Part shown: positions 61,240 to 63,435 of the stretch, one piece after another
How positions within the stretch are numbered: the first letter of the stretch is position 1
Layout: each line of letters starts with the position of its first letter
Assembly (NCBI RefSeq): GCF_000626675.1
Contig: NZ_CP006842.1
Coordinates: 248,001-312,000 of the forward strand
Origin: Corynebacterium glyciniphilum AJ 3170
Lineage (GTDB): Bacteria; Actinomycetota; Actinomycetes; Mycobacteriales; Mycobacteriaceae
Direction: 5' to 3'
DNA: 64,000 nucleotides
Made by a program: the position numbers and the translations under genes
Notes under the pieces: model-generated
What the model was told of the DNA's origin: nothing
The model's database searches: none
The model's input: only the letters and a program-made list of their open reading frames with translations

Positions 61240-61545
61240 ATGGACGCCGAGCACAACACCGACAGCACAGTCATCCCGTTCCGCCCCCGCAGAGAGCCCG
61301 CGACACTCTGGCGTGAGGTGCTCGGGGAGGAGATCCGGCGCCAGCGCACCGCGCGCAGCGACCGGCTCAGGGACACGGCCGAGCGAGCCGGGATTTCGCC
61401 CCAGTACCTCTCGGAACTGGAACGGGGGATGAAGGACCCGTCCTCCGAAGTGCTGGAGGCCGTTGCCGGTGCGCTGGGGAACTCGTCCTTCGACCTGGTG
61501 CGTTCGGCGGCAGCTCCTAGTGGGCCGGTGCTTCTCGCCGCGTGA
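61240..61545 (+). CDS. Xre-type regulator resembling PopR/ClgR, ends in LAA
   Basis: The protein has 101 residues. The HTH at about 35-80 (LRDTAERAGISPQYLSELERGMKDPSSEVLEAVAGALGNSSFDL) closely resembles the PopR/ClgR regulators that activate clpP operons in Streptomyces and corynebacteria. It ends VLLAA; PopR and ClgR carry a C-terminal Ala-Ala degradation signal that makes them substrates of the Clp protease. The gene converges on the clpP operon with a 29-nt 3' overlap, so regulator and protease genes form a unit. Autoregulation through degradation is a natural inference. Confidence 0.82.
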   Translation: MDAEHNTDSTVIPFRPRREPATLWREVLGEEIRRQRTARSDRLRDTAERAGISPQYLSELERGMKDPSSEVLEAVAGALGNSSFDLVRSAAAPSGPVLLAA

Positions 61546-62122
61546 GGATCCGGTCCGCCACGCCGTAGTCGACGGCAGCCTCCGGGGTGAGGACGAGCTG
61601 GCGTTCGGTGTCTTCCCTGACCTGTGCCGGGGTGCGGCCGCAGTGCTGTGCGAGTACCGACTCCTGCAACCGTCGGATCCGCTCCATTTCCTCGGCCTCG
61701 ATGATCAGGTCGGGAATGGTGCCGCGTCCACCTTCGGCTGCGGGGGCGGTGAGGACGACTCTGCCGTGGTGCAGGATCGACCGGTGGCCCGGTGTGCCGC
61801 CGGCGAGTAGCAGTGCCGCTGAGGCGACAGCCTGACCGACGCAGGTGGTCTCTACCCGCGGACGGATGAACTGCATGCAGTCGTAGATCGCCATCGTCGC
61901 CGACTGCGATCCGCCGGGGGAGTTGATGTACAGGGAGACGGGTGTGTCAGGATTGTCGCTTTCCAGGTGGAGCAGCTGGGCGATGACAGTGTTGGAGACA
62001 CCGTCGTCCACCGGCGTGCCGAGGTAGATGATGCGTTCGTCGAGCAGCCGGCTGTAGATGTCGACGGTCTTCTCGCCGTTCGGGGTCGCGGTGGTGACAT
62101 AGGGGATCGGGTACGACGACAC
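61517..62122 (-). CDS. ClpP-like protein lacking the Ser-His-Asp catalytic triad
   Basis: The protein has 201 residues. The ClpP fold is clear (DERIIYLGTPVDDGVSNTVIAQLL, LYINSPGGSQSATMAIYD). The three catalytic positions are changed: the nucleophile site reads GQAVAS, with Ala100 where GQAAS has Ser; the catalytic His of IHQP is Thr125 in VVLTAP; the Asp of TERD is Gln175 in TERQ. A Ser at 101 is one place off. So this subunit should be proteolytically inactive. It is the second gene of the operon, 1 nt after the intact clpP, and presumably forms mixed rings with it. Confidence 0.9.
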   Translation of the reverse strand: MSSYPIPYVTTATPNGEKTVDIYSRLLDERIIYLGTPVDDGVSNTVIAQLLHLESDNPDTPVSLYINSPGGSQSATMAIYDCMQFIRPRVETTCVGQAVASAALLLAGGTPGHRSILHHGRVVLTAPAAEGGRGTIPDLIIEAEEMERIRRLQESVLAQHCGRTPAQVREDTERQLVLTPEAAVDYGVADRILTRREAPAH

Positions 62123-62123
62123 G

Positions 62124-62756
62124 TCAGCTCACCCCCAGGCCGAGCGTCGCACGACGCGTCGTCAGCCCGTCAGGGCCGGTGATCAGGTCGAGGTCGTCGA
62201 TGACCCGGTCGACGAAACCGTAGTCCTTCGCCTGCTCGGCGGTGAACCACCGGTCGCGTAGCGAGTCGCGGGTGACTTTGTCGAGTGGTTGGCCGGTGTC
62301 ATCGGAAATGCAGGTCAGGACGGTGTCCCGGGTGTGGCGCATGTCGGCGGCCTGAATCTCGATGTCCTGTGCAGAGCCTCCGATGCCGCCGGAACCCTGG
62401 TGCAGCAGCACCTTGGCATGCGGCAGGGCGAGGCGTTTGCCCGGGGTGCCGGCGGAGAGCAGGAACTGACCGGCGCTGTAGGCCATGCCGATGTTGACGG
62501 TGGCGACATCATTGGGGATGCCGCGCATGGTGTCGCGGATGGCGAGCATGCCGGGCACGGAGCCGCCGGGTGAGTTGATGAGCAGGACGATGTCGGCGGT
62601 GGCGTCGCGGGCGGCGAGGAGCAGCAGGGAGGTGCACAGGCGGTTGGAGGTGTCCTGCTCCAGGGCGTCGCCGAGGACGATGATGCGACGTTCGTAGAGG
62701 TCGCGGTAGATCTCCTGGTCCAGGATGCGGGTGGGGTCGGGGTTGTTCTCTGACAT
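62124..62756 (-). CDS. clpP: ClpP protease subunit with intact catalytic triad
   Basis: The protein has 210 residues from the ATG at 62756 (MSENNPDPTR), chosen because the longer frame to 62921 overlaps the TetR gene and AGGGTGG lies upstream. ATP-dependent Clp protease proteolytic subunit: Ser94 in GMAYSAGQ, His119 in VLLHQG, and Asp168 in SLRDRWFT; LLINSPGGSVPGMLAIRDTM is the usual oxyanion-side motif. A 15-residue extension after VDRVIDDLD is longer than in the standard subunit. First gene of the operon; two palindromes upstream are candidate regulator sites. Confidence 0.93.
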   Translation of the reverse strand: MSENNPDPTRILDQEIYRDLYERRIIVLGDALEQDTSNRLCTSLLLLAARDATADIVLLINSPGGSVPGMLAIRDTMRGIPNDVATVNIGMAYSAGQFLLSAGTPGKRLALPHAKVLLHQGSGGIGGSAQDIEIQAADMRHTRDTVLTCISDDTGQPLDKVTRDSLRDRWFTAEQAKDYGFVDRVIDDLDLITGPDGLTTRRATLGLGVS

Positions 62757-62783
62757 GGTGACCACCCTGCGCACGGCGCCGGT

Positions 62784-62800
62784 GCAGGGCAATGCCCTGC
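62784..62800. promoter_or_regulatory. Palindrome upstream of clpP
   Basis: GCAGGGCAATGCCCTGC has perfect 7-nt arms around AAT. It lies 28-44 nt before the clpP ATG, in promoter territory. A second regulator site or a leader hairpin is possible. Confidence 0.5.
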
Positions 62801-62811
62801 TGCCGACAGCG

Positions 62812-62830
62812 GATCCGCTGTGAGCGGATC
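62812..62830. promoter_or_regulatory. Palindrome with CGC-N5-GCG core, candidate PopR/ClgR site
   Basis: GATCCGCTGTGAGCGGATC has perfect 8-nt arms. CGC-N5-GCG is the core I recall for ClgR/PopR binding; the minus strand reads CGCTCACAGCG. It lies 56-74 nt upstream of clpP and just past the TetR stop codon. It could also be a terminator, but no T-run follows. Confidence 0.55.
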
Positions 62831-62832
62831 GG

Positions 62833-63435
62833 TCAGCGACCGGCGAGGTAGCTCTCCCAGCCGGGCTCGAGCAGATCGAAGACCGCGTTGACGACAGCCG
62901 GGAGTTCAGCGGTCGTGGCATCGATGAGTTGTGCCTGCAGGGCGCACCGTGCGAAGGCGCGGACGGTCACGTCCGGTGTCTGCTGGCCGAGGTCGGCGGC
63001 GATGGCGTCGGCCAGGGAGTTCTCGTGCCGTAGCCACATCTTCTGCGCGTAGTCGGAGAGCGAGGGGGAGTCGTCGATGAGCTTGGTGAAGCGCTGGTGG
63101 GAACCTTCGGGGGCGTCGTCGTGCCACGCGTCCTCGCGGTAGAACTTCCGGAGGGCGTCAGGGATGCTGACACCGTCCGGGCGGTCGGAGACAGCGGAGG
63201 TGAGACGTTCGCGCATCTCATCGTCCTCGTCGACGGCGATTGCTTCTTTGCAGGGGAAGTGGGCGAAGACCGTGGTGGGGGAGACATCGGCGGCATCGGC
63301 TATTTCGCGGACGCTGACGTTGTCGAAGCCGCGCTTCAGGAAGAGTTCCAGGGCAGCGTCGGCGATCGCACGTCGGGTCGCCGCTTTCTTCCGTTCGCGT
63401 CGGGTGGGGTTACTGGTCGTGGTGTCGGCTGCCAT
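62833..63435 (-). CDS. TetR-family regulator of the divergent MFS gene
   Basis: The protein has 200 residues from the ATG at 63435. HTH: RRAIADAALELFLKRGFDNVSVREIADAADVSPTTVFAHFPCKEAI. The C-terminal domain has no clear ligand clue. A TAGTGT box (63443-63448, minus) 7 nt before the ATG and TTGTAT 18 nt further up make a good leaderless promoter; the upstream frame to 63555 would cross the operator and is rejected. It should repress the MFS gene through the 29-nt palindrome. Confidence 0.88.
   Translation of the reverse strand: MAADTTTSNPTRRERKKAATRRAIADAALELFLKRGFDNVSVREIADAADVSPTTVFAHFPCKEAIAVDEDDEMRERLTSAVSDRPDGVSIPDALRKFYREDAWHDDAPEGSHQRFTKLIDDSPSLSDYAQKMWLRHENSLADAIAADLGQQTPDVTVRAFARCALQAQLIDATTAELPAVVNAVFDLLEPGWESYLAGR

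Follow-up and report, generated by a model that had tools for sequence, protein, structure and literature searches.

Mycobacterium and Streptomyces carry two adjacent clpP genes, which encode a ClpP1-like catalytic subunit and a ClpP2-like docking partner. In M. tuberculosis the ATPases are reported to use ClpP2 only (PMC4416901). In Streptomyces, ATPases are likewise described as docking on ClpP2, and a Ser-to-Ala exchange is reported to keep full activity when placed in ClpP2 and to abolish it when placed in ClpP1 (PMC9765437). Because the ATPases dock on ClpP2 and the ClpP2 serine is dispensable in Streptomyces, a naturally dead ClpP2-like ring would be a workable design. A second pair, the clpP3-clpP4 operon of Streptomyces, has reportedly been in print since 2000. 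S. lividans, in which clpP5 is also present, is described as needing either clpP1P2 or clpP3P4 for viability (PMC9765437). In Streptomyces, the regulator PopR is reported to be degraded by the housekeeping ClpP1P2, and clpP3P4 to be expressed when ClpP1P2 is absent (PMC9765437, PMC12607617).

Two further systems bear comparison. ClpR of cyanobacteria, plastids and apicoplasts, as described in PMC7966870, is a ClpP homologue without catalytic function that forms part of a hetero-oligomeric core. ClpP-ADEP of Streptomyces hawaiiensis is an accessory ClpP that forms hetero-cores; unlike the dead subunit described below, it is reported to be closest to ClpP1 and to be proteolytic together with ClpP2 (PMC12607617).

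The locus studied here lies in a 64,000-nucleotide stretch of the Corynebacterium glyciniphilum genome (the window). Judging by its genes and their order, it is the clpP3-clpP4-popR arrangement known from Streptomyces. Its features are as follows.

62124..62756, minus strand: clpP3, the upstream, ClpP1-like subunit with intact catalytic residues (Ser94 codon 62475-62477, His119 62400-62402, Asp168 62253-62255)
61517..62122, minus strand: clpP4, the downstream, ClpP2-like subunit without a catalytic triad (Ala100 codon 61823-61825, Thr125 61748-61750, Gln175 61598-61600)
61240..61545, plus strand: popR-like helix-turn-helix regulator, convergent with clpP4, 101 aa, HTH_3 match, C-terminal LAA
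62799..62828, strand-neutral: putative PopR-type operator in tandem form, made of two 15-bp inverted repeats that abut, 42 bp ahead of the clpP3 start
62812..62830, strand-neutral: perfect 19-bp palindrome, an extended form of the tandem's upstream half

For clpP3, the ATG at 62756 is the most probable start codon, since aligned relatives begin at this position. clpP4 starts with GTG, 1 bp after the clpP3 stop. Both proteins match the ClpP family profile (Pfam PF00574) over its length, with 195.3 and 198.3 bits against a cut-off of 20.2, and the order of helices and strands in the AlphaFold model of ClpP4 is ClpP-like. The original prediction of one intact and one catalytically dead subunit holds at the level of residues: ClpP3 carries Ser94, His119 and Asp168, and alignment confirms Ala100, Thr125 and Gln175 at these places in ClpP4. 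We take the activity of the Ser-His-Asp triad to be that of peptidase family S14. With Ala, Thr and Gln at the triad, ClpP4 is therefore classed, by sequence, as a ClpP homologue and not as a peptidase. A separate, ordinary clpP1P2 pair, whose presence the original prediction had left to be checked, is found in the same genome (G000:C1:2524055-2525260).

The regulator gene and clpP4, on opposite strands, share 29 bp at their 3' ends (61517-61545), so that the codons of the LAA degron are antisense to the end of clpP4. Such an overlap is also present in 19 of 159 other loci.

Within the genus, 151 Corynebacterium genomes were searched; 148 gave a ClpP match, and those with three or more matches (22 genomes) were examined again with Pfam. 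Nine of the 151 hold the second pair, the named carriers including C. glyciniphilum, C. kalidii, C. sputi and two candidate species. All nine keep the order clpP3, clpP4, convergent regulator, and the regulator ends in LAA in eight and in CAA in one. The ClpP3 triad is invariant in the alignment of these nine orthologues, and triad residues are lost in every ClpP4; the original prediction had proposed to look for this loss and gene order in other Corynebacterium genomes. Eight of the nine have Ala in the Ser column, Thr, Ala or Ser in the His column and Gln in the Asp column; the ninth (G023) reads Ser-His-Lys and has thus lost the Asp alone.

Technical explanations for this loss were considered and rejected. 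The loss is common to eight of nine genus copies, and 119 of the 120 closest listed database proteins (7,996 found) lack the full Ser-His-Asp triad, which rules out a sequencing error or a lone mutation. The motif windows around the triad sites are free of gaps in the alignment rows listed, which rules out an alignment artefact.

Two other Corynebacterium genomes carry related single genes. One (G038, L072:4741-5874) has a solitary clpP3-like gene with an intact triad and a convergent regulator ending in LLAA, with no clpP4-like gene within the 11 kb examined. The other (G053, L074:4452-4901) has a decayed clpP4-like remnant with in-frame stops, with no clpP3 within the 9 kb examined.

The same division extends across the class Actinomycetes. 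We first consider a sample of named loci keyed on ClpP4, the best 80 of 182 relatives; it was picked by similarity to the dead ClpP4 and is biased towards the dead state. Here, ClpP3 is intact throughout, at least one triad residue is lost in 56 of the 80 ClpP4 and 24 of 80 keep Ser-His-Asp. To avoid keying on the dead subunit, 393 class genomes were also searched with the ClpP3 alignment. Among the matches listed, 100 loci were taken (30 given, and 70 chosen by higher score with ClpP1-like rows skipped), of which 90 were counted. Left out were L208, L226, L234 and L236 as ClpP1P2-like, L245 and L249 for a doubtful regulator (both with intact ClpP4), L253, L254 and L181, in which no ClpP4 was found, and L163, the window itself. 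ClpP4 is intact in 20 of these 90 loci, or in 22 of 92 if L245 and L249 are counted, and dead ClpP4 occurs in 10 of 14 family codes and 21 of 33 genus codes.

In the pooled unique sequences, Ser-His-Asp is found in 170/170 ClpP3 and in 41/169 ClpP4, a set that includes the window's own ClpP4; with eight excluded loci still in, the counts are 178/178 and 47/175. Here lies the difference from ClpP1P2, in which both partners keep the triad: all 101 actinomycete controls, taken from 30 pair-carrying genomes and Corynebacterium and sorted to type by best profile, have it (ClpP1 51/51, ClpP2 50/50). Death of ClpP4 is not required, since 41 of 169 keep the full triad. The closest listed relatives of a Streptomyces ClpP4 (119 proteins; 7,889 found) all lack the His, with Gly in 118 and Ala in one. 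The query was assigned to Streptomyces through a 99% identical named protein; many of the 119, though not all, are named as Streptomyces proteins, and P0121, a longer protein, was omitted. As S. lividans lives on either clpP1P2 or clpP3P4, the latter pair can evidently serve, although these relatives are without His. Catalytic loss in ClpP4, as read from the aligned residues, is thus recurrent across Actinomycetes, including Streptomyces. In the main texts of the open-access literature, we found no statement that ClpP4 lacks the catalytic His or triad, or that relatives have lost the triad repeatedly.

The triad residues are replaced in many ways: Ser by Ala, Gly, Trp, Glu or Phe; His by Gly, Thr, Asp, Gln, Ala, Ser or Glu; Asp by Asn, Glu, Gln, His, Thr, Ser or Lys. 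In the window, Ser101 lies next to Ala100, and 24 of the 63 ClpP4 with Ala in the Ser column have a Ser one column on, as if the nucleophile had merely been displaced and ClpP4 could still cut. The idea is scarcely credible. That next column holds Ser, Thr, Ala, Val, Gly, Pro, Asn or Asp across ClpP4 and varies also where the catalytic Ser is kept, and the window ClpP4 has lost the His and Asp columns as well; we therefore rejected it.

A quick tree of the 169 ClpP4 and 30 actinobacterial ClpP2, built with the triad columns removed and containing several weak nodes, places all ClpP4 in one clade beside ClpP2 (support 94). On this tree the distribution of intact and lost states cannot be explained with fewer than 10 changes; with losses only, 20 are needed. 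Serinicoccus ClpP4 with the full triad (L094, L097, L100) are nested among Ala-type ClpP4 and may have retained or regained it; these and the Ser-His-Lys protein of G023 are two nested cases that could be reversions.

The tree also bears on the likeness to plant ClpR that the original prediction had drawn when it gave the dead subunit a structural or adaptor-gating role. ClpP4 shares with ClpR the missing catalytic triad, and this part of the comparison stands. Unlike ClpR, the ClpP4 clade sits beside actinobacterial ClpP2 and some of its members are intact, and for these reasons the loss in ClpP4 most likely arose separately; the tree covers ClpP4 and ClpP2 sequences. ClpP4 reaches 153 of the 263 bits set as threshold for NCBIfam NF009204, which we take to be the cyanobacterial ClpR model. 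The tree, together with the docking columns and the N-terminal loop described next, refines the proposed role to that of a ClpP2-like docking partner.

In E. coli ClpP, the docking-patch residues are given as Y74, Y76 and F96 in precursor numbers (PMC4416901); we name the docking columns by the mature residues Tyr62 and Phe82. ClpP4 has Tyr at the Tyr62 column in 169/169 sequences and Phe or Tyr at the Phe82 column in 157/169, with His in the other 12. In ClpP3, the Tyr62 column is Tyr in only 65/170 (Trp in 53, Leu in 40) and the Phe82 column is aromatic in 8/170, Leu being frequent there. ClpP3 proteins with Tyr or Trp at Tyr62 and Leu at Phe82 might still dock weakly. At positions 60, 62 and 82, the window ClpP3 reads Val/Leu/Gly and the window ClpP4 Ser/Tyr/Phe, position 60 being weakly conserved in all four subunit types. 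The ClpP4 set is close to that of the docking ClpP2 of Streptomyces, reported as S94, Y96 and Y116 (PMC9765437).

The N-terminal loops are divided in a similar manner. The median number of residues before the DIYS column is 20 in ClpP4, as in ClpP2 (20), and 12 in ClpP3 and 14 in ClpP1. In the AlphaFold model of the window ClpP4 (mean pLDDT 89.6), strands at residues 8-13 and 16-21 form a predicted hairpin (8-21). Column counts and loop lengths together point to a split of the ClpP1P2 type, with the docking patch and the N-loop mainly on one partner.

The many different replacements at the triad sites are what would be expected of sites no longer selected, and the broken remnant in G053 shows that a clpP4-like gene can decay within the genus. 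This raises the question whether clpP4 is on its way to becoming a pseudogene, or whether the triad was lost by neutral drift in a protein without a remaining role. All nine genus copies of clpP4 are open frames and the gene pair is kept. Pairwise dN/dS within Corynebacterium is 0.06-0.26 for ClpP4, compared with 0.06-0.32 for ClpP3, although no dS value was obtainable for some pairs involving G023, including window against G023. The window ClpP4 gives 0.11-0.20 against seven of the eight other Corynebacterium, and in a few close pairs the ClpP4 value exceeds that of ClpP3 (0.140 versus 0.092; 0.128 versus 0.075). The Tyr62 column is invariant in ClpP4, as is the Leu114 column (169/169). The dead ClpP4 is under purifying selection. 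The triad sites have likely drifted, but it is not likely that the protein as a whole has lost its function, and we regard ordinary decay as very improbable.

We propose that the ClpP3-ClpP4 core is built like actinobacterial ClpP1P2, with a catalytic ClpP3 ring stacked on a ClpP4 ring. By analogy, each subunit is assumed to form one homoheptameric ring. ClpP4, having given up catalysis, would provide the docking face for a ClpX or ClpC unfoldase, and would at the same time serve as the axial gate and, as one half of the barrel, keep ClpP3 in its active conformation. ClpP3 in turn would have little left of its own docking patch, and its N-loop is short. A hetero-oligomer of the two is strongly suggested, and the dead subunit probably survives as a docking ring. 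For the reading as a whole, i.e. a two-ring barrel in which ClpP3 cuts, ClpP4 docks the unfoldase and a PopR-like activator switches the operon on when ClpP1P2 fails, we estimate a probability of about three in four.

The arrangement of the subunits could also be different. Plastid cores are reported to combine active and inactive subunits in one ring (PMC7966870), and the two genes lie 1 bp apart; ClpP3 and ClpP4 might thus alternate within a ring, as the P and R subunits of the plastid R-ring do, so that ClpP4 would reduce the number of active sites and form no ring of its own. We consider this unlikely, as the docking features are divided between ClpP3 and ClpP4, and for M. tuberculosis ClpP1P2 the description is of one ring made of ClpP1 on another made of ClpP2 (PMC4416901). 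Alternatively, ClpP4, being ClpP2-like, might join the housekeeping ClpP1 and disable or divert it, much as ClpP-ADEP disrupts the ADEP-activated ClpP1; ClpP-ADEP is reported to interfere with ClpP1 oligomers and to pair with ClpP2 (PMC12607617). A negative regulator of this kind appears even less probable. In 171/171 loci that have both (loci sought through ClpP3 or ClpP4), ClpP4 adjoins an intact ClpP3 encoded in the same direction, and the reported need of S. lividans for one of the two pairs (PMC9765437) argues that ClpP3P4 acts as a protease and not as an inhibitor alone.

If the stacked barrel of a cutting and a docking ring holds, the tree suggests how it came about. On the ClpP4 tree, one change is enough to account for the loss of the Phe82-column aromatic in the partner ClpP3, and the likely order is therefore that ClpP3 lost this docking residue once and ClpP4 lost catalysis many times later. 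Co-evolution of the two losses was considered and set aside. The locus counts are strong, the ClpP3 aromatic being absent in 126/127 loci with dead ClpP4 versus 37/44 with intact ClpP4, but in an independent-pairs test the ClpP3 patch state was unchanged in 5.5 of 6 pairs on average, which gives no phylogenetic support; we keep the order of events only.

The facing regulator is PopR-like, as originally predicted: it is convergent with clpP4, matches HTH_3, ends in PVLLAA and occupies the same place in the module as in relatives. Across the class, a regulator could be identified in 159 of 171 loci (the other 12 include incomplete ones) and is convergent in 159/159, with LAA at the C-terminus in 145/159. 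An Ala-Ala end is likewise shared with the Streptomyces-like loci. The likeness to ClgR, a Clp regulator, is looser. The helix-turn-helix region is alike and the solved ClgR structure PDB 3f51 is matched, whereas the regulator scores 54.8 bits against the curated ClgR equivalog model, under its cut-off of 170, and another gene of the same genome scores better (90.6 bits), likewise under the cut-off. This closest ClgR relative (L256:1402-1791, G000:C1 about 1665855) ends in VASH, without Ala-Ala, unlike the PopR-like regulator.

The palindrome before the operon, GATCCGCT-GTG-AGCGGATC at 62812-62830, is perfect, as had been noted, and conserved in near relatives. Its CGC-N5-GCG core is part of a tandem box of the PopR type, and a match to the published ClgR box, GTTCGC-N5-GCG, lies instead before clpP1P2 of the same genome (L073; a single case, judged by eye). 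Read towards clpP3, the tandem boxes are TCCGCT-N3-AGCGGA and TCCGCT-N3-GGCAGC (30 bp, 62799-62828), a candidate tandem PopR operator. The S. lividans PopR site is given as TCTGCC-3N-GGCGAATCTGCC-3N-GGCAGA (PMC9775585). The tandem motif TCYGCY-N3-RGCRGA, present twice with at least 22 of 24 positions matched, occurs in 120 of 172 loci against an expectation of 0.00 from shuffles of two-base blocks, the degenerate motif having been derived partly from the same loci. The core CCGCT-N3-AGCGG is not enriched genome-wide (229 matches with at most one mismatch versus 889 for a reversed-pattern control); the palindrome was assessed by its position, tandem form and conservation.

Compared with Streptomyces, the locus thus shares gene order, convergent regulator, tandem operator layout and a dead ClpP4 (His to Gly in Streptomyces). 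It differs in that all three residues are lost in eight of nine Corynebacterium ClpP4 and in its operator arms, TCCGCT/AGCGGA. PopR regulation is known from Streptomyces and is proposed for Corynebacterium. Here, the PopR-like activator with its LAA degron would act through the tandem operator, and ClpP1P2 would keep the activator low, so that the operon comes on when ClpP1P2 fails. The self-limiting circuit of the original prediction is doubtful, as in Streptomyces it is the housekeeping ClpP1P2 that is reported to remove PopR. Since ClpP3 there appears in the absence of ClpP1P2, the Streptomyces findings suggest by analogy that a failure-triggered backup is the better reading for Corynebacterium too.

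Should the two rings divide their work in this way, actinomycete Clp cores illustrate how docking and cutting rings separate, the Phe82 aromatic having been lost once in ClpP3 and catalysis many times in ClpP4. Plant ClpR would gain additional counterparts from bacteria, amenable to production in E. coli. It also bears on survival of ClpP-targeting antibiotics through ClpP3P4: ADEP-resistant S. lividans clpP1 mutants are described as expressing an ADEP-insensitive ClpP3P4 (PMC12607617), and beta-lactones are reported to be lethal to S. coelicolor without clpP3 and clpP4 (PMC9775585). A tentative extension, towards which we lean rather less than away, is that the dead ring has been selected for and not just tolerated. 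A barrel with seven active sites in place of fourteen, whose docking ring has no reactive serine, might serve as a backup Clp that resists active-site poisons and ADEP-type activators, switched on by PopR exactly when the housekeeping core is poisoned. If true, the half-dead barrel evolved many times in actinomycetes.

Directly upstream of the operon lies a TetR-family gene with an MftR-like C-terminal domain (62833-63435). Beside it, a divergent open reading frame, present from 63517 onward and cut off by the window end, resembles an MFS transporter by eye.
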